Assembly: GCA_016212295.1 (NCBI GenBank)
Contig: JACRGO010000179.1
Coordinates: 1 to 6,934 of the forward strand
Length of the DNA stretch: 6,934 nt
Source of the DNA: Nitrospinota bacterium
GTDB taxonomy: Bacteria; Nitrospinota; Nitrospinia; JACRGO01
Direction of reading: 5' to 3'
Shown here one piece after another: positions 508-6,934 of this stretch (the first letter of the stretch is position 1; every line of letters begins with the position of its first letter). The notes under the pieces are model-generated. The model was not told the origin of the DNA and did no database searches. It was given only the letters and a program-made list of their open reading frames with translations. The translations under genes and the position numbers were made by a program.

Positions 508-627
508 AATTTTATGGGAAATACTTTAAGATTAAATGGTTATATATAAAAATAAAAAGTAATATGTGAGGACAGTAGCAAGAAATACGAAACAAGGACC
601 AAATATTGCCAAGGCTTTTAGTTTAGG

Positions 628-681
628 TGATTTCGCCATTTTGATATTCGAATTTATTTCGGATTTCGATATTCAATATTC
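628..681 (-). repeat. heptad-period repeat element at the 3' end of argG
   Basis: Read on the minus strand from 681, the sequence divides into seven-base words: GAATATT, GAATATC, GAAATCC, GAAATAA. A four-base break ATTC (650-653) follows, then GAATATC, AAAATGGC and GAAATCA. All but one of the words begin with GAA. The element overlaps the end of argG: the last two codons (GAA, TAT) and the TGA stop are made from the first two heptads. I could not find a convincing opposite arm in the following 100 bases (plus 530-627), so it is either a single-arm or a decayed element. Its layout matches the palindromic element upstream of the TPR gene, although the words differ. Confidence 0.6.
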
Positions 682-1905
682 TCCCCTCCCCTGCCCTTTC
701 ATCTTCTTTTGGGCCTTAAGCGGAATGGCATTGATGTTGATGAAACCAGTGGCGTTGGTGGGGTCATAGCGCCCTTCATCCTTGTCCATTGAGGCGATGT
801 CGGCGTCATACAGCGAATTGGGAGACCTGCGGCCGGTCACCATGCAGTTTCCCTTATAGAGTTCCAGCCTGACCTCGCCGCTCACCCCTTTCTGGCTTTC
901 CGCTATCATGGCCTTCAACACCCTGGCCTCCGGCGAGAACCAGAAACCGTTGTACACCAGGCGTGCGAACCTGGGCATGAGGGAGTCCTTCAAGTGGATA
1001 ACTTCACGGTCCAGGGTGATGGACTCCATGGCGCGGTGGGCGATATGCAGGATTGTCCCGCCAGGCGTTTCGTACACGCCTCGCGATTTCATCCCCACGA
1101 ACCTGGATTCCACCATGTCCACCCGCCCTATACCGTTTTCTCCCCCTATTTCGTTCAATCTGGAAAGAAGGGCCGCCGGAGAAAGGGCCTTCCCATCCAC
1201 CTTCTTAGGGTTGCCATCCTCAAATTCGATCAAAAGCTCAGTGGTCTTGTCCGGCGCGTCCTTTGGCGATCTGGAAAGCTCGAACATATCCGCCGGCGGC
1301 TTCATCCACGGGTCTTCCAATATCCCGGCCTCGAAACTGATGTGCATGAGGTTCTCATCGGAACTCCACGGCTTGGAGGCAGTGGCCTTGACTGGTATCC
1401 CGTTTTCCTCGGCGTACTGGATCAGCTCTTTTCGTCCCGGAAATTTCTGGAAAAACGCCGGATCACGCCAAGGGGCCACGACCTTGATATCAGGCTTCAA
1501 TGCGTAATAGGTTAATTCAAATCGTACCTGGTCGTTCCCCTTCCCGGTGGCGCCGTGGGCCACGTAATCTGCCCCCACCTTTTCGGCCAGATCGATCTGC
1601 CGTTTAGCTATCAATGGACGGGCAATGGACGTGCCCAGGAGATATGTTCCCTCGTAAAGCGCGTTTGCCTGAATCAGGGGAAAAATATAATCTCGAACAA
1701 ACTCTTCCCGCACATCATCCACCACCACTTCCATCGCGCCTGATTTTTTCCCCTTTTCCTTAATTGCGTCCAGGTTTTCCACCTTCTGCCCCAGATTGAC
1801 CAAAAGGCCGTAAACTTCGTAACCACGGTTTGAAAGCCAGTGGACCAGTACAGAGGTGTCAAGTCCGCCGGAATACGCCAGAACCATTTTTTTGTTGTTT
1901 GACAT
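673..1905 (-). CDS. argG: argininosuccinate synthase
   Basis: The enzyme catalyses ATP-dependent condensation of citrulline with aspartate to argininosuccinate, AMP and pyrophosphate, the penultimate step of arginine synthesis in the cytoplasm. The 410-residue length fits the family. The ATP-binding P-loop-like motif SGGLDTS is at residues 12-18 within AYSGGLDTSVL. The signature GTSIARPLIAK is at 91-101 and HGATGKGNDQVRFE at 117-130; APWRDPAF and KPWSSDENLMHISFE follow in the expected order. The C-terminal segment contains YDPTNATGFI. No motif is missing or frameshifted. The ATG at 1905 is preceded by AGGAG at a good distance. The last residues (GQGRGEY) are unlike the usual end of the family, and the final two codons and stop lie in a repeat element. 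No argF or argH is in the window. The gene is richer in G+C than the flanking membrane and SGNH genes. Confidence 0.98.
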   Translation of the reverse strand: MSNNKKMVLAYSGGLDTSVLVHWLSNRGYEVYGLLVNLGQKVENLDAIKEKGKKSGAMEVVVDDVREEFVRDYIFPLIQANALYEGTYLLGTSIARPLIAKRQIDLAEKVGADYVAHGATGKGNDQVRFELTYYALKPDIKVVAPWRDPAFFQKFPGRKELIQYAEENGIPVKATASKPWSSDENLMHISFEAGILEDPWMKPPADMFELSRSPKDAPDKTTELLIEFEDGNPKKVDGKALSPAALLSRLNEIGGENGIGRVDMVESRFVGMKSRGVYETPGGTILHIAHRAMESITLDREVIHLKDSLMPRFARLVYNGFWFSPEARVLKAMIAESQKGVSGEVRLELYKGNCMVTGRRSPNSLYDADIASMDKDEGRYDPTNATGFININAIPLKAQKKMKGQGRGEY

Positions 1906-1912
1906 TTATTCA

Positions 1913-1917
1913 CTCCT
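1913..1917 (-). promoter_or_regulatory. Shine-Dalgarno sequence of argG
   Basis: Minus-strand AGGAG lies seven bases before the argG ATG (context TTTAGGAGTGAATAAATG). It is the clearest ribosome binding site in the window and fixes the argG start at 1905. Confidence 0.85.
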
Positions 1918-1955
1918 AAAATAAATTTTGGACATATATCAAGAAGAAATAAAGA

Positions 1956-1983
1956 AGCCGGAATCCAGGAGCCAGAATATGAA
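1956..1983. repeat. short heptad-period repeat remnant between the SGNH gene and argG
   Basis: Plus strand divides into AGCCGGA, ATCCAGG, AGCCAGA and the weaker ATATGAA, a period of seven bases. The remaining 101-base spacer between the SGNH stop and the argG start is AT-rich with no palindrome. Only three good units are present, so this is a modest call; words of this CCAGAAT/CCAGGAG type are familiar as intergenic repeats in environmental genomes. Confidence 0.4.
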
Positions 1984-2006
1984 AAAAATTGCAACTCTTA
2001 ACCTTA

Positions 2007-3101
2007 CTATCGGTTAATCATTTCCCTGAATTTTGGATCATTGGAAATCCGAGAGAAAATGGCATCGGCTATGACCTTATGCCCTGCCTCGTTAGGATGG
2101 GCGTCATAAGGAAATTTTGTGTCGATCCACAACTGCCGCAAATTTTCCCAATCATTTTTTTTCATATGGAACTGAAAGAAGTCGTATAAATCCAAAACAC
2201 CGTACCCGAATTTAGTTAGATGAAATACCAATTTTTTATGGAGAAACAGGTAGTGTGGGTCCTTGTTACGGTCTGGGACTCGCTTTATCCAAGGATCACC
2301 AATCACGATATATGGCAGGATACCGTTTTTCTCAGCGCTAGAGGCGATTTCCTTCAACGCGTTCAGGTGGTTGTCGTAATCCGGGCCTTCCACAAAATTA
2401 CCCTGGAACAATTTATTAACGTTTTTATAATAAATCCTGTCCTTGTTCAGGAAATACCGGACCCTCCTGACGGTCCACTTTATCAGGGCGGAATGCAGGA
2501 AGTTATCTCCTACCCCTGGAGCTATATAATCCGGTGGATAGAGCTCGCCCAGCAGTTCCGCGTCATTATGGTCATAGTGCAAAATAAGAACGTGTGGTTT
2601 TACTTTCAGGGCCTTTTTCTTAAAGACCGCTGACTCCACCGCTGAATTGTATCCGGGCACAGCGAAATTGAAGGATCTGAACTTATGTTCTGCATTTGAA
2701 TTATTCAGCAACCCCTCCAATAGGCGTAAATATGTATCCTCCTGCTCCACTCCCCATCCGAACATTGAGGAATCGCCCACGCCCGCGATTCGTATTTTTT
2801 TATCATTCGAGGAATCATTGCCCGTATCGCTTTTTCCAACTCTCAGCCCTTCCGCATTGGTTTTTACGCTTTTGCCCAAAAAAGACGTGTCTAAATCAGG
2901 TATAAGTTCATAAAAAATTTCAGGGTCCTGGCTAGGCCGGACCAATTTCTTGGCGCCCTCATTGCCGCGTAATCCTATTTCCAGGCGTTCCTTGCTGATT
3001 TCATCCTGAAAAAAAAATCTGACAATGATTTCGCCGGATAAAAAACAAACACTCAAGGAAAATATTGCGACATATATATTTATCAGAATATTTTTTTTCA
3101 T
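2007..3101 (-). CDS. membrane-anchored SGNH/GDSL-family hydrolase
   Basis: This is a probable esterase or acyl-transferring enzyme of the SGNH fold, acting outside the cytoplasmic membrane; its substrate is unknown. All four family blocks are present (364-residue numbering): VGDSSMFGWGV with the nucleophile Ser111, VPGYNS with Gly150, HYDHNDA with Asn179, and YDAHPNEAGH with Asp333 and His335. The N-terminus (MKKNILINIYVAIFSLSVCF) is a signal anchor of about 20 hydrophobic residues after two lysines. The ATG at 3101 overlaps the stop of the preceding TPR gene (TAATG), which suggests translational coupling. A GTG at 3113 would add four residues and is less likely, because the ATG directly precedes the lysines of the anchor. 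Members of this family are common in surface polysaccharide loci, but that role is inference here. Two homopolymer runs lie near the 5' end (eight A in codons 2-4, nine T near residue 30). Confidence 0.85.
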   Translation of the reverse strand: MKKNILINIYVAIFSLSVCFLSGEIIVRFFFQDEISKERLEIGLRGNEGAKKLVRPSQDPEIFYELIPDLDTSFLGKSVKTNAEGLRVGKSDTGNDSSNDKKIRIAGVGDSSMFGWGVEQEDTYLRLLEGLLNNSNAEHKFRSFNFAVPGYNSAVESAVFKKKALKVKPHVLILHYDHNDAELLGELYPPDYIAPGVGDNFLHSALIKWTVRRVRYFLNKDRIYYKNVNKLFQGNFVEGPDYDNHLNALKEIASSAEKNGILPYIVIGDPWIKRVPDRNKDPHYLFLHKKLVFHLTKFGYGVLDLYDFFQFHMKKNDWENLRQLWIDTKFPYDAHPNEAGHKVIADAIFSRISNDPKFREMINR

Positions 3102-3103
3102 TA
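3099..3103 (-). promoter_or_regulatory. TAATG stop/start overlap coupling the TPR and SGNH genes
   Basis: The TAA stop of the TPR gene (3103-3101) shares its last A with the ATG of the SGNH gene (3101-3099). Only a weak GAG lies upstream, so initiation probably depends on ribosomes finishing the TPR frame. This is good evidence that the two proteins are made together. Confidence 0.7.
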
Positions 3104-4777
3104 CGACGCGCACTCATTGAGCTTCTTTATCATCTCCTCCCTGAGATTGCGTAAGTCGCGATACCGGTCGAAACGTTCCGCGGCCATGATCCTTGGGTTA
3201 ATGTAAATGGCCTCCATCAACCGGAAGGACGCCTGGGCCTGGTTCTGCGTTTCCAGATAAGCCATGGCAAGGTCGCACAGGACCCATTCCTTTCCCCTGG
3301 GGTTGAATTTAAGTATGTCCTTATAAACATGGTACGCCTCTTCCTGGCGTCCATGTTCGCGAAGATACACGGCATGGTTCAGTCCGGCGGTCTTTAAGTT
3401 CTCAACCACTATGTTCCTGTCCGGGATTTCGTGGCCAAGCAGTTCCATGTAGATCTGAAACGCCTTGCCTTCATGCCCGTTCTTCCTTAATTCCACAGCA
3501 TAGTTGTTGAAGGCCGGCCCCACGAAGGAAGGGTCCTCGTCGATCACCTGACGGAAAATTTTCTCGGCCTTTTCGTATTCCTGGTTCCTGGCGAGCAGGA
3601 TGGCTTGATCGATCCGTATATCCATCTCCAAGTCCGGGTCCACGTAATCTATTGAGCTTGTATTTTTTATTACTCTTGCCGATAATTTGGAAATTTCCCT
3701 TTCAAAATCCTCCAGGCCCATCTCCCGGAAATCAGCCTCTCCCAGAGCGGCCACCACCGGGGCGTAAGGCGATTTCGGAAGTCTTTCCGGAGAGCCGGCA
3801 TTGTCCCTTGCCATTTTGTCTATCAAGGATTCGGCCTCCTTGAGGTGTTTCATCGCCAGGGCGAACAAGGTCTTGATTTTTTCAGGGTTGTCCTTGTTCT
3901 CCTTGATCAGGACAAAACAACAGGCCGCAATTTTTGCGTAGGGGGATGGCACGGATTGCTCGAGCTTGTTCGCCTCCCTGTAATCCGATAATGCGGGCAT
4001 GAACTTCTTGCTCTTGTAATAGGCGTCTCCTCTTTCCACAAGCGCCTGGAAATTGGCATGAATCGAGATCGCCTCAGTGAAAACCTTTATCGCCTCCTCG
4101 TACTCTCCCTTTTGGAACAACTCCTCGCCCCTGGTGAGGAGTTCCTTGTATTTGTTAACTTTTTCCATGTCGCCGTCCTTTAAGGCGATTGGGTCCTTTT
4201 TTTCAGGAGTGGCCGCGGCGGTCATCATTTTGTGGAAGCTGAGCAAGTCCTTAAGGATTTCTTCAATATTAGTGTCTATTTCAGCGTTGGTGGTAAGAAA
4301 ACTGGCGTACCTGATCCCGAAATTTCCCAGGAGCCTGAAGATATCCTGCTGCTTTTGAGAGGAATAGGAGAGGAAAAACACCGGTATAAGCGTTTTAAAG
4401 GACGTATTTGGAGCGCTGCTCTTGATTGCCCTTAATAAATTGACAAGGTTATGCCCCCCTGTTTGCGGCCGGTAATGCAGGAGGATCAAATAATCGGACT
4501 TCAGCCATTTAACTATATTGGCTATCAGCGCGCCGGTTTGTTGCGCGGGTTGTGGATAGGTGTGGAACCCGACCCTTTCCAAAACATTAGCAAGGTTGGC
4601 GCTCAAGGTCTTGTCATCCAGACTGAAGGGCAAATGGGAGTGCTTCTTAACCAGATCCCTTAATTTCGCCTTATAAACCGCAATCAGCTTCTGCCTCACC
4701 GGGAGCTTTTGAGAGGCGGTTTCGGATTCGGATGATGCGGCGTTATTATCGTTGCTGGAATCACTGTTCATGCGCAT
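3101..4777 (-). CDS. TPR protein with possible receiver-like N-terminal domain
   Basis: The 558-residue product is cytoplasmic; no signal or membrane segment is seen. Residues 1-25 are a Ser/Asn/Glu-rich disordered leader. Residues 60-178 alternate hydrophobic strands and helices (YLILLHY at 96-102, LIPVFFLSY at 130-138, IRYASFLTT at 155-163) in an order reminiscent of CheY-like receivers. The phospho-acceptor Asp expected after the third strand and the Lys after the fifth are not visible, so it would be a pseudo-receiver. TPR-type helix pairs follow at about 208-241, 243-276, 389-418, 420-450, 463-495 and 497-528, with a helical linker between the second and third. TPRs bind protein partners, so an adaptor or regulatory role is likely. 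The ATG at 4777 has a short AGG upstream; a second ATG at 4771 is possible. The gene overlaps the SGNH gene by one base. The TPR call is firm; the receiver assignment is inference. Confidence 0.8.
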   Translation of the reverse strand: MRMNSDSSNDNNAASSESETASQKLPVRQKLIAVYKAKLRDLVKKHSHLPFSLDDKTLSANLANVLERVGFHTYPQPAQQTGALIANIVKWLKSDYLILLHYRPQTGGHNLVNLLRAIKSSAPNTSFKTLIPVFFLSYSSQKQQDIFRLLGNFGIRYASFLTTNAEIDTNIEEILKDLLSFHKMMTAAATPEKKDPIALKDGDMEKVNKYKELLTRGEELFQKGEYEEAIKVFTEAISIHANFQALVERGDAYYKSKKFMPALSDYREANKLEQSVPSPYAKIAACCFVLIKENKDNPEKIKTLFALAMKHLKEAESLIDKMARDNAGSPERLPKSPYAPVVAALGEADFREMGLEDFEREISKLSARVIKNTSSIDYVDPDLEMDIRIDQAILLARNQEYEKAEKIFRQVIDEDPSFVGPAFNNYAVELRKNGHEGKAFQIYMELLGHEIPDRNIVVENLKTAGLNHAVYLREHGRQEEAYHVYKDILKFNPRGKEWVLCDLAMAYLETQNQAQASFRLMEAIYINPRIMAAERFDRYRDLRNLREEMIKKLNECAS

Positions 4778-4788
4778 AATGCCTATAA

Positions 4789-4815
4789 AAGATATTTAAA
4801 AAATCCAAATGTCAA
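4789..4815 (-). promoter_or_regulatory. weak candidate promoter of the TPR gene, partly inside a repeat
   Basis: The outer end of the palindromic repeat supplies a perfect TTGACA on the minus strand (plus 4810-4815). The best -10-like box, TATCTT (4789-4794), is only 15 bases away and would leave a very short leader before the ATG at 4777. The -35 match is striking but the rest is poor, so this is a low-confidence call. Confidence 0.2.
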
Positions 4816-4938
4816 ATAACAAATAAATCTCAATAACCAAAATTACAAAGAACAAACAAGGAAAAGGAATTGTTTTGTTTATTCGGTAATTGTAATTTGA
4901 AATTTATTTGAAATTTGCTATTTGTCATTTGGGATTTT
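4801..4938. repeat. long imperfect palindrome built of CAAATNN heptads
   Basis: The left arm (about 4801-4855) reads CAAATGT, CAAATAA, CAAATAA, ATCT, CAATAAC, CAAAATTA, CAAAGAA. The complement of the right arm (about 4880-4938) reads CAAATGA, CAAATAG, CAAATTT, CAAATAA, ATTT, CAAATTA, CAATTAC. The arms therefore pair imperfectly and differ by one whole heptad. The AT-rich centre (about 4856-4879) has no coding potential. No transposase or target duplication is evident. It resembles a non-autonomous, MITE-like or STRR-like intergenic repeat located between the deacetylase stop and the TPR start. Confidence 0.75.
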
Positions 4939-4969: not shown

Positions 4970-4979
4970 ATGTTTTGAA

Positions 4980-5011
4980 AAATCCCAAATCTTAAATCCC
5001 AAATCTAAAAT
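4980..5011. repeat. AAATCCC/AAATCTN heptad tandem overlapping the deacetylase stop
   Basis: Plus strand reads AAATCCC, AAATCTT, AAATCCC, AAATCTA, AAAT with a strict seven-base period (or two copies of a 14-mer). The TAG stop of the deacetylase gene (5005-5007) and its final Phe codon lie inside it. The first unit with its flanking A pairs perfectly over 12 bases with 4927-4938, the right end of the neighbouring palindrome. Confidence 0.7.
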
Positions 5012-5845: not shown

Positions 5846-5955
5846 ATTCTCACACGAAGGCACAAAGGCACGAAGAAATAAGAAGACAGAGGACATGAAA
5901 ATCAGTTACTTCCACCTATTTTTTTTCTTGTGCCTTTGTGCCTTCGTGTGAGAAT
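5846..5955. repeat. perfect 26-bp inverted repeat, possible bidirectional terminator
   Basis: The left arm 5846-5871 and right arm 5930-5955 are exact complements over 26 bases, around a 58-base loop. The arms have an eight-base inner period (CACACGAA, GGCACAAA, GGCACGAA). Beyond the perfect part the pairing continues with a one-base bulge. T-runs follow the stem on both strands: TTTTT on the minus strand at 5846-5842 and two runs on the plus strand after 5958. It may therefore end transcription of the WD40 gene. The WD40 stop codon begins at its outer base. It resembles widespread GAAGGCACAAAGGCAC-type mobile intergenic repeats. Confidence 0.8.
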
Positions 5956-6934
5956 CAGTTTTTATTTTTTCGACATGGATTTTTGTAATTTTCATCAGCG
6001 TGGACGGCAAATGTTTTTACTGACCCATTTTCGTCCCTCGCCCTTTGCCCTTCACCCTTCGCCCCTTCTATCGCCTCTATCGGAAAACGCTTCATGCCGG
6101 AACTAAGGCCGATCCATCTCCATGCGTTAGGGGAGGAAGAAAGAAGTTTTTTGCCCTCGCCGTCCCATGCCGCTGTTTCCCCTTCCGGCAGTTGAACGAA
6201 GGTCTTGAGGCATTCTCCGGTTTTAATGTCCCAGACCTTAAGGGTATTGTCGGATGAAGCGGAGACTATCCTCCGGTTGTCGGGAGTTACGGCACAGGAA
6301 TTCACCGAACCAGAATGCCCTTCCAGGGTCTTGAGGCATTTGCCCGTTTCCGCGTCCCATATCCTGAGTGTATTGTCGTCTGAAGCGGAGGCAATTCTCC
6401 GGTTATCGGGGCTTACGGCGCAGGAATGTATATAACTGGAATGCCCTTTAAGGGTTTTGAGGCATTTTCCGGTTTCCATGTCCCAGACCTTGAGGGTATC
6501 GTCATCAGAAGCGGAGACTATCCTCCGGTTGTCGGGACTTACGGCGCAGGAATTCACCGAACCGGAATGCCCTTCCAGGGTCATGAGGCATTTTCCCGTT
6601 TCCGCGTCCCAAACCTTAAGGGTACTGTCATCAGAAGCGGAGACTATCCTTCGGTTGTCGGGGCTTACGGCGCAGGAATTCACCGAAGCGGTATGCCCTT
6701 CAAGGGTCTTGAGGCATTTTCCCGTTTCTGCGTCCCAAACCTTAAGGGTATTGTCGTTGGAAGCGGAGACAATCCTTCGGTTGTCGGGACTTGCGGCGCA
6801 GGAATTCACCGAACCGGAATGCCCTTCCAGGGTCTTGAGGCATTTTCCCGTTTCCGTGTCCCAAACCTTAAGAGTATTGTCGGATGAAGCGGAGACTATC
6901 ATCCGGTTGTCAGGGCTTAGGGCGCAGGAATTCA
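5955..6934 (-). CDS. WD40 beta-propeller protein, 3' part of gene (N-terminus outside window)
   Basis: The open frame enters from the right edge (NSCALSPDNR precedes the first in-frame Met, which replaces a repeat Arg and is not the start). Six units carry the SxDNTLKVWD type motif; five complete ones are 42 residues each, with GH, the conserved Asp and WD in the expected places. A degenerate last unit follows (WDGEGKKLL...AWRWIGL), then a low-complexity tail of about 40 residues. Units differ from one another at about five to eight residues, clustered at unit positions 6-8, 15, 22 and 28-32. WD40 arrays bind proteins; such nearly identical arrays often form the sensor end of multidomain proteins with NACHT/NB-ARC, TIR, kinase or protease domains. 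Which of these applies here cannot be seen. The tail reads through a 7-bp tandem repeat, and the stop touches an inverted repeat. Confidence 0.9.
   Translation of the reverse strand, partial: NSCALSPDNRMIVSASSDNTLKVWDTETGKCLKTLEGHSGSVNSCAASPDNRRIVSASNDNTLKVWDAETGKCLKTLEGHTASVNSCAVSPDNRRIVSASDDSTLKVWDAETGKCLMTLEGHSGSVNSCAVSPDNRRIVSASDDDTLKVWDMETGKCLKTLKGHSSYIHSCAVSPDNRRIASASDDNTLRIWDAETGKCLKTLEGHSGSVNSCAVTPDNRRIVSASSDNTLKVWDIKTGECLKTFVQLPEGETAAWDGEGKKLLSSSPNAWRWIGLSSGMKRFPIEAIEGAKGEGQRARDENGSVKTFAVHADENYKNPCRKNKN
6030..6064. repeat. 7-bp tandem repeat inside the WD40 gene tail
   Basis: Plus strand reads TTCGTCC, CTCGCCC, TTTGCCC, TTCACCC, TTCGCCC: five units of exactly seven bases, consensus TTCGCCC. 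On the coding strand it is translated as the Gly/Glu/Arg-rich segment GAKGEGQRARDE. The length of 35 is not a multiple of three, so loss or gain of one unit would shift the frame of the last codons. Confidence 0.75.
6198..6934 (-). repeat. 126-bp tandem repeats encoding WD40 blades
   Basis: Five full 126-bp units run at 6899-6774, 6773-6648, 6647-6522, 6521-6396 and 6395-6270. A partial unit lies on each side and the right edge cuts the array. DNA identity between units is high; most carry a GAATTC at the same place. The fourth unit is the most divergent, around its GHSSYIHS segment. Such arrays can gain or lose blades by recombination, and may be mis-assembled. Confidence 0.88.

Follow-up and report, generated by a model that had tools for sequence, protein, structure and literature searches.

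Two intergenic heptad repeats in a Nitrospinota genome as probable gene-less derivatives of an S23p/IVP cassette

Repeats in the window and their genomic copies

The window, the whole 6,934-nt stretch of a Nitrospinota contig that was analysed, carries two repeats. Both copies lie between protein genes and not within rRNA, and neither holds any PF05635 ORF. One of them, a G-word element (G1 subfamily), is located on the minus strand at 581-681. From 681 to 628 it reads GAATATT GAATATC GAAATCC GAAATAA / ATTC / GAATATC / AAAATGGC / GAAATCA, that is, four heptads (681-654), ATTC (653-650), the word GAATATC (649-643) at the position of GAATGAC with its ATG in gene-bearing relatives, and further words (642-628), after which comes the loop. 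A right-arm remnant, GGTCCTTGTTTCGTATTTC, lies at 603-581 on the same strand; own-genome copies have a longer right arm, and gene-bearing G-word cassettes also support the assignment.

The other repeat, at 4801-4938 on the plus strand, is a C-word element, a 140-bp ORF-less imperfect inverted repeat recognised by its own-genome copies and by gene-bearing C-word cassettes, comparison with which gives plus as its sense orientation. Its left arm (plus strand, 4806-4845) reads CAAATGT CAAATAA CAAATAA / ATCT / CAATAAC / CAAAATTA. The heptads occupy 4806-4826, and 4827-4845 appears to be a decayed translation-start region: ATA at 4833-4835 stands in the place of the ATG of a four-helix-bundle ORF in gene-bearing cassettes (CAATGACCAAAATTC; ORF starts in L259, L278, L280, L313 and L318). 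The right arm (minus strand, 4873-4938) reads on the complement CAAATGA CAAATAG CAAATTT CAAATAA / ATTT / CAAATTA / CAATTAC and forms inverted repeat I3 (28 nt, 82% complementary). An extra arm fragment on the plus strand at 4979-5011, AAATCCCAAATCTT repeated 2.4 times, is 79% complementary to 4906-4938. The third inverted repeat, also ORF-less, is built on a different word (octads CACGAAGG/CACAAAGG) and, with no assigned strand, lies at 5846-5955 (I1, 36 nt, 89% complementary); its word resembles the flanks of L197, a gene-bearing cassette of the same genus.

The letters of the two repeats are those given in the sequence-only reading, and both are repetitive in their own genome. For the C element, 264 candidates were found there, and all of the 40 copies scored were near full length with 86-94% identity. 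Of the G element, six further near-full copies and over 20 partial ones are present. A 247-kb sample of the genome, chosen by contig number, contained 18 period-7 arrays versus none in shuffles, with 0-1 for the other periods from 4 to 12. The C family was essentially absent from G001, a genome of the same genus (best E 0.0025), which makes the amplification recent and lineage-specific. The ORF-less C elements showed no orientation bias (8 ++ versus 11 --). Decayed intermediates between gene-bearing and ORF-less forms were also found (L341, L343, L344 and the half-deleted L382). In G056, a genome with ORF-less copies, the single PF05635 gene has another word, and the presumed source cassette was not found.

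A common layout of the two repeats had been proposed from their alignment. Within the window alone, only 2 of 400 mononucleotide shuffles matched or beat the score of the G arm when aligned with the left arm of the C element, but 35 of 400 heptad-order shuffles reached it, so that the match is not clearly better than the latter. The layout is therefore marginal from the window alone, and the genome-wide evidence is decisive.

Array layout and the start codon

The layout pattern SAAAYAAATTMSAATRWCMAAAATTC was found at 121 sites in genomes from at least 10 phyla. In gene-bearing cassettes of one protein clade (YDLEERT), the array takes the form [xAAAYNN]n, xAAAYAA, ATTC/A, xAATGAC, where x, the leading letter, stands for C, G or T and does not vary along an array. 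Two pattern letters covary at the layout sites (Fisher p=1.5e-9, the sequences not being independent): where S1 is C the counts are 259 C versus 4 G, and where S1 is G they are 50 G versus 4 C. The same word is used in both arms. The suggestion had been made of a single repeat family that keeps its breakpoints while its word is exchanged as a set, and this part of it is supported.

The ATG inside xAATGAC is the start codon of the four-helix-bundle ORF, and the sequence after the array, ATG ACC AAA ATT CAA, encodes MTKIQ, the start of this ORF. In C-, G- and T-word cassettes alike, the start codon lies in the word after the break; the gene is retained in G-word cassettes (L217, L280, L318/L127 and L340) and in C-word cassettes (L235 in the own genome, L259, L313, L314 and L335-L338). 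The break, described as ATYY followed by words of 7 and 8 bases, thus marks where an ORF begins: it is a coding boundary, and a copying step that works per heptad, suggested as its cause, is not supported. Copying or homogenisation by heptad may still occur: between plasmids of ~99% identity the arrays differ by exactly two heptads in length, and a difference of one heptad between Coxiella IVS strains has been published (PMC4990558). The ATG is present at 110 of the 121 layout sites, and an intact ORF lies no more than 400 nt away at only 2 of the 121. Most copies thus persist without an ORF.

PF05635 genes, their flanks and their sites

The own genome has 18 matches to PF05635 (TIGR02436), the S23p/IVP protein family of intervening sequences (IVS) in 23S rRNA, and nearly all of them have inverted heptad arms. 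For 62 PF05635 genes, the flank score was 23.0 when matched versus 9.7 when mismatched, and the own partner flank was the best match in 47. Control ORFs gave a median flank score of 9.0, and the two highest controls turned out to be PF05635 genes; lags of 7, 8 and 14 were elevated solely in PF05635 flanks. In other phyla, 25 of 29 PF05635 genes agreed. When 117 PF05635 genes from 28 genomes were pooled, the own-flank match was 22.3 versus 9.5 with the flanks of other genes, with much relatedness among the sequences and MAGs making up most of the genomes; a strict flank threshold was missed by 37 of the 117. Terminal inverted repeats able to form a stem are present around these 117 genes and also in the C element of the window. 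The word follows the protein clade (Mantel r=0.34, 0 of 1000 permutations). As judged from these flanks, PF05635 genes of this genome, its class and many other phyla sit between inverted heptad arrays; the two arms of a cassette share one word, and other cassettes have other words. The PF05635 ORFs are under purifying selection (dN/dS 0.06-0.26), and the cassettes are co-oriented with the operons in which they lie (77 ++ versus 5 --). A separate observation was made at L364, where an inverted pair of AGTGACA arrays brackets a 90-aa ORF, a microcompartment-type gene judged by eye. Bracketing by a common word is therefore not exclusive to PF05635 genes.

Cyanobacterial plasmids showed filled and empty cassette sites between close relatives, and the plasmid cassettes carry matched arms. 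No consistent target-site duplication was found: one site suggests a 5-bp GTAAT, and at two sites local sequence was replaced. The cassette is probably mobile. A phage vehicle is not supported, one protein used as query giving no PF05635 match in phages. On an Azospirillum plasmid, cassette L377 sits in helix 45 of the 23S rRNA, where the helix loop is replaced, with GGACAGA/GGACGGA heptads as arms on either side. Since one cassette fills this helix, the rRNA IVS is a special case of a wider cassette class. In the Coxiella IVS, GACAGAT heptads precede the S23p start codon (PMC4990558).

Alternative explanations and the proposed element

We consider it very likely that both repeats derive, as MITE-like forms that lack the ORF, from an S23p/IVP cassette, in which a PF05635 gene lies between inverted heptad arrays of one word. 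Counting against this are the rarity of intact ORFs at the layout sites, the missing source cassette in G056, the absence of a consistent target-site duplication and of a wobble asymmetry, and the 37 genes below the strict flank threshold. As the window copies have no ORF, they are termed derivatives, and not members, of the 23S rRNA IVS/S23p element. The cassettes resemble the IVS with an S23p/IVP ORF of Leptospira and Coxiella (PMC4990558) in protein family, terminal inverted repeats, an ORF in the loop and sporadic distribution, as well as in the heptads of the Coxiella and Azospirillum IVS. Unlike these, the present elements are placed between the protein genes of operons, and a genome often carries many of them; each cassette has its own matched word, and derivatives without the ORF are dispersed.

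It is very improbable that the arrays are simple-sequence repeats, unrelated to any gene and produced by polymerase slippage at a preferred unit of 7 nt, and that the layout is due to chance in AT-rich DNA. The present arrays do have a tandem 7-nt unit, are intergenic and vary in length, like the heptads of Nostoc/Calothrix, Xanthomonas (GGGAATC) and Beggiatoa (TAACTGA), the change here being by whole heptads; many bacteria have an excess of heptads, for which slippage has been proposed as the cause (PMC4692102, PMC4679880). The marginal result of the heptad-order shuffles in the window would also agree with this explanation. The published heptads, however, are mainly direct repeats with one word per genome and no linked gene, whereas here one genome has many words, the arrays form inverted pairs, and a gene family is linked to them. 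The arrays flank PF05635 genes as inverted pairs that share a word, their words track the protein clade, and across phyla their fixed breakpoints end in a start codon. Slippage accounts for length change, but neither for the inverted pairing nor for dispersal of a 140-bp unit. The matched-flank and clade tests refute slippage as the whole story, and it stays a component.

The ORF-less copies are MITE-like in number and length: like MITEs and small dispersed palindromic repeats, they are short, non-coding, high-copy inverted-repeat forms of a larger element that also exists with a coding ORF. They could accordingly be REP/REPIN-like or IS-derived MITEs moved by a Y1 (RAYT) or other transposase, the PF05635 genes being secondary insertions in a repeat hotspot. 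A GC hairpin (GGTTGCGGCGAAGCCGCGCCATG), separate from the heptad element itself, borders some own-genome copies at one edge, a similar one flanks the relative L063, and Y1 genes (PF01797) occur in 20 of 40 relatives, with two in the own genome. This explanation seems improbable, however, since each PF05635 clade has its own word in both arms in different genomes, which suggests that arms and gene travel together; the paralogous cassettes L227 and L228 are 81% identical across arms and ORF only, with nothing shared outside. A genome with both cassettes and ORF-less copies, G019 (78% complete), gave no Y1 match. As many-copy intergenic palindromic repeats the elements resemble REP/REPIN, but no defining hairpin with tetranucleotide and no consistent Y1 partner was identified. 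Unlike MITEs, they have no known transposase, the coding element encodes only a 120-aa four-helix protein, and the arms are heptad arrays, not fixed terminal inverted repeats. No integrase, reverse transcriptase (RT) or Y1 transposase was shown to act on them.

It would also be improbable that the elements belong to a DGR-like or retron-like retroelement with an Avd-type subunit and an RT acting in trans. A distant relationship of PF05635 to the DGR accessory protein Avd is indicated by structural comparison in the literature (PMC10053308) and by a weak match of one PF05635 protein to the Avd model of NCBIfam (28 bits against a cut-off of 80), and the sense-strand insertion bias is consistent with such an origin. 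A search for a linked RT had been suggested; a PF00078/RVT_1 search of 40 relatives detected none in the cassette-rich genomes G004 (8 cassettes, 92% complete), G002 (3, 96%) and G019 (6, 78%), and the own genome has one RT versus 18 PF05635 matches. Unlike DGRs, which combine RT, Avd and template/variable repeats, the cassettes have neither a linked RT nor a template/variable repeat.

A host-beneficial regulatory module, in which the heptad hairpin and the four-helix protein form a unit of mRNA processing or translational control kept in operons, is an unlikely explanation, despite the co-operonic orientation of the cassettes, a purine-rich upstream arm (about 64% A+G) and the purifying selection on the PF05635 ORFs. 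Against it stand the patchy presence or absence at closely related sites, the dozens of ORF-less copies with unbiased orientation and the near-absence of the C family from the same-genus genome. G:U/U:G and A:C/C:A arm mismatches numbered 142 versus 130 (p=0.50). In the absence of a wobble asymmetry, an RNA-stem function is not evident, and the idea of a pressure on the transcript to keep pairing gained no support.

For the S23p/IVP cassette we propose the following mechanism. The element would be selfish and mobile, and its protein would be made through host transcription of the operon. The protein may recognise its own word and promote copying or insertion, and the ORF-less copies may use it in trans. 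Slippage would shift whole heptads within one arm and keep the word uniform, and template switching across the hairpin may copy one arm onto the other, so that a new word sweeps both. More tentatively, we suggest the possibility of an unrecognised, widespread minimal mobile element, in which one 120-aa four-helix-bundle protein, specific for its own heptad word, would drive both the gain and the copying of cassettes, and likewise of their ORF-less forms, with no transposase or RT of its own. Word and protein would co-evolve, the 23S rRNA IVS would be a few copies that landed in rRNA, and the class might be a main source of unexplained intergenic heptad repeats.

A literature search of open-licence papers found none tying PF05635 genes outside rRNA to heptad arms, a result that does not prove there are none. 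In many genomes the S23p/IVP proteins carry the annotation four helix bundle protein; they have been reported without a known function, although an S23p structure has been solved for Xcc0516 of Xanthomonas campestris, and the intergenic heptad excess in bacteria has so far had no specific explanation; the matched-word cassette connects the two. The matched word is a testable candidate recognition sequence for each protein clade, and the filled and empty sites make mobility testable. Within this scheme, the intervening sequences of rRNA become one special form of an element that is commonly intergenic.

Layout of the repeats and the start codon

The sequence-only reading had described two intergenic repeats, at 628-681 (minus strand) and 4801-4938, which share one layout (heptads, an NAAATAA word, an ATYY break, then words of seven and eight bases) with different leading letters. 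The letters were exactly as claimed. Judged from the window alone, the layout match was weak, since 35 of 400 shuffles of the heptad order reached the score of the left arm, so support had to be sought elsewhere in this genome and in others. A search with a layout pattern instead of the bases, C or G being permitted at both word starts, returned at least 121 sites among the matches listed, with differing leading letters and from several phyla. Desulfobacterota contributed sites, as did records labeled Planctomycetes, Omnitrophota, Nitrospinae, Gammaproteobacteria, several Patescibacteria, Verrucomicrobia, Hydrogenedentota, Bacteroidetes and Aminicenantes. The single archaeal match (L139) had no heptads and is probably due to chance. 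Among these sites, the bases 7, 14 and 21 upstream of a break word starting with C were 259 C versus 4 G, and those upstream of a break word starting with G were 50 G versus 4 C. The upstream leading letters thus agree with the letter of the break word, and the proposal that the word changes as a set was borne out.

An intact ORF lay near only 2 of the 121 listed sites, most being ORF-less, and ATG was present inside the post-break word at 110. In the stretches L116/L313 this word opens an ORF: CAATGACCAAAATTCAAAATCCCAAA reads ATG ACC AAA ATT CAA AAT CCC AAA (MTKIQNPK...), and the protein, a four-helix-bundle protein, continues YDLEERTFQFAKAV... and matches TIGR02436 at 85.5 bits, with 2rld as a solved relative. 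The gene-bearing cassettes of this clade (L259, L278, L280, L313, L314, L318, L335-L340) have the order array, ATTC or ATTA in most, and xAATG, where x, the set letter, is C, G or T. As read from the sequences, the layout break is the start codon. At the place of this ATG the C element (4801-4938) has ATA, and the G element (581-681, minus strand) has GAATATC at the place of the start-codon word. Steps towards ORF-less copies are seen in three decayed genes (L341, L343, L344) and in L382, a half-deleted copy.

At 673-681 the G element runs into the 3' end of argG, whose final codons (GEY-stop) are element sequence. In L338, a gene-bearing C-word cassette, the complete 11-7-8 unit recurs several times in the arms, which match very closely (inverted-repeat score 47).

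PF05635 genes between matched arms

Our genome contained 18 matches to PF05635, the S23p/IVP family of 23S rRNA intervening sequences (IVS). Inverted heptad arrays surround nearly all of the genes above the curated cut-off, each with its own word (ACGATCC, GCGATTA, CACGGTT, TCATTGG, TGGAATA, GAACATC, CAAATTA and others). The sole sub-threshold match (L241) showed no inverted heptad arrays. The intergenic cassettes are tied to known rRNA elements by the helix 45 insert of Azospirillum lipoferum, a classical 23S rRNA IVS whose two arms carry GGACAGA/GGACGGA heptads. In the Coxiella IVS, GACAGAT heptads lie ahead of the S23p start codon, their number differs among strains, and S23p reportedly has no known function (PMC4990558).

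The upstream flank of each gene was aligned with the reverse complement of its downstream flank. For 62 genes of the class, matched flanks averaged 23.0 and flanks taken from different genes 9.7; in 47, the gene's own partner outscored every other. The median for control ORFs at the same loci was 9.0; the two highest-scoring controls were themselves PF05635 genes. With other phyla included (117 genes, 28 genomes), the averages were 22.3 and 9.5; 80 genes exceeded the 99th percentile of mismatched pairs and 37 fell below this strict threshold. In a plasmid collection, matched arms were found in 11 of the 12 cassettes examined, which were mostly cyanobacterial. Word similarity tracked protein identity across different genomes (r=0.34, 0/1000 permutations), showing linkage of word to clade; this comparison, like those of flanks and layout, drew mostly on draft MAGs, and the sequences are not independent.

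Selection on the ORF was shown by dN/dS of 0.06-0.26 between related ORFs where computable, paralogues within one genome included. Genes between tandem neighbors were co-oriented in 77 cases versus 5 opposed, orientation being taken from the longest open frame and 11 genes having no call. ORF-less C elements showed no orientation bias (8 versus 11). These facts fit a need for transcription with the operon.

A same-word array pair also enclosed an unrelated ORF in one operon (L364, G000:C208). This operon is seemingly for a microcompartment, and AGTGACA occupies several of its intergenic gaps with or without a PF05635 gene, which is local spread of one word. Four-helix-bundle cassettes also lie between cas6 and cas4 in CRISPR operons of Pseudanabaena and Anabaena plasmids (L369, L374), type I-D according to the L374 annotation.

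Copies and movement

The genome comprises 3.74 Mb in 237 contigs, of which the window is one entire contig. The 140-bp C element had 264 candidates, and all 40 scored were near full length at 86-94% identity; a sequence search found the family essentially missing from a same-genus genome. The G element, which falls into two subfamilies, had six other near-full copies and more than 20 partial ones. Diverged full-length relatives with unchanged spacing occur in genomes from other families of the class. In 247 kb of the genome, sampled by contig number, period-7 arrays numbered 18 versus 0 in shuffles, and the remaining periods from 4 to 12 gave 0-1.

A third, ORF-less inverted repeat at 5846-5955 consists of octads (CACGAAGG/CACAAAGG) in 36-nt arms, 89% complementary, and its word resembles that of a gene-bearing cassette of the same genus (L197). 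With short heptad tracts of other words at 6030-6064 and 1957-1977 (TTCGCCC; CCAGAAT/CCAGGAG-like), this 6.9-kb contig has about five different words. Edge modules are common to elements with different words: C and G2 elements (L002-L030; L038-L060) carry a GC hairpin (GGTTGCGGCGAAGCCGCGCCATG) on one side and ACAAACTTATAAAACTTTGTTTTTTT on the opposite side. A similar GC hairpin adjoins L063, a relative from another family, and G1 elements (L033-L038) have a terminator-like hairpin, GCCTGAACGAAAACCCCCGTTCAGGC or CTTGACCGAAAATCAGGGTTTTCGGTCAAG, at the edge.

Two paralogous cassettes of the genome (L227, L228) were 81% identical across arms and ORF and unrelated outside. Three filled/empty comparisons on plasmids showed presence and absence. 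At one site of conjugative cyanobacterial plasmids, where the sequences were about 99% identical, Trichormus and Scytonema carried the cassette and Nostoc carneum and Microchaete lacked it; GTAAT may be duplicated there, and the filled copies differed by two heptads in length. In a Nostoc plasmid, the cassette stood in place of about 45 nt downstream of a traM-like gene. The Azospirillum lipoferum cassette stood in place of the helix 45 tip in one 23S rRNA gene. This gene, unannotated on plasmid p2 of strain 4B (L377), carries an S23p IVS in place of the helix 45 loop; the insert is missing from an rRNA gene located on a different plasmid of this strain.

Possible mechanism

The sequence-only reading had offered pairing pressure or copying per heptad, and had proposed a search for a linked transposase or reverse transcriptase. 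Selection for transcript pairing was not supported, wobble and non-wobble mismatches numbering 142 versus 130, nor was a dedicated RT or Y1 partner. The protein itself may recognize its own word and promote insertion or copying, and ORF-less copies would be carried in trans. Slippage inside one arm, together with template switching across the hairpin, might hold both arms to one word, and the same processes would also let a new word sweep both arms.
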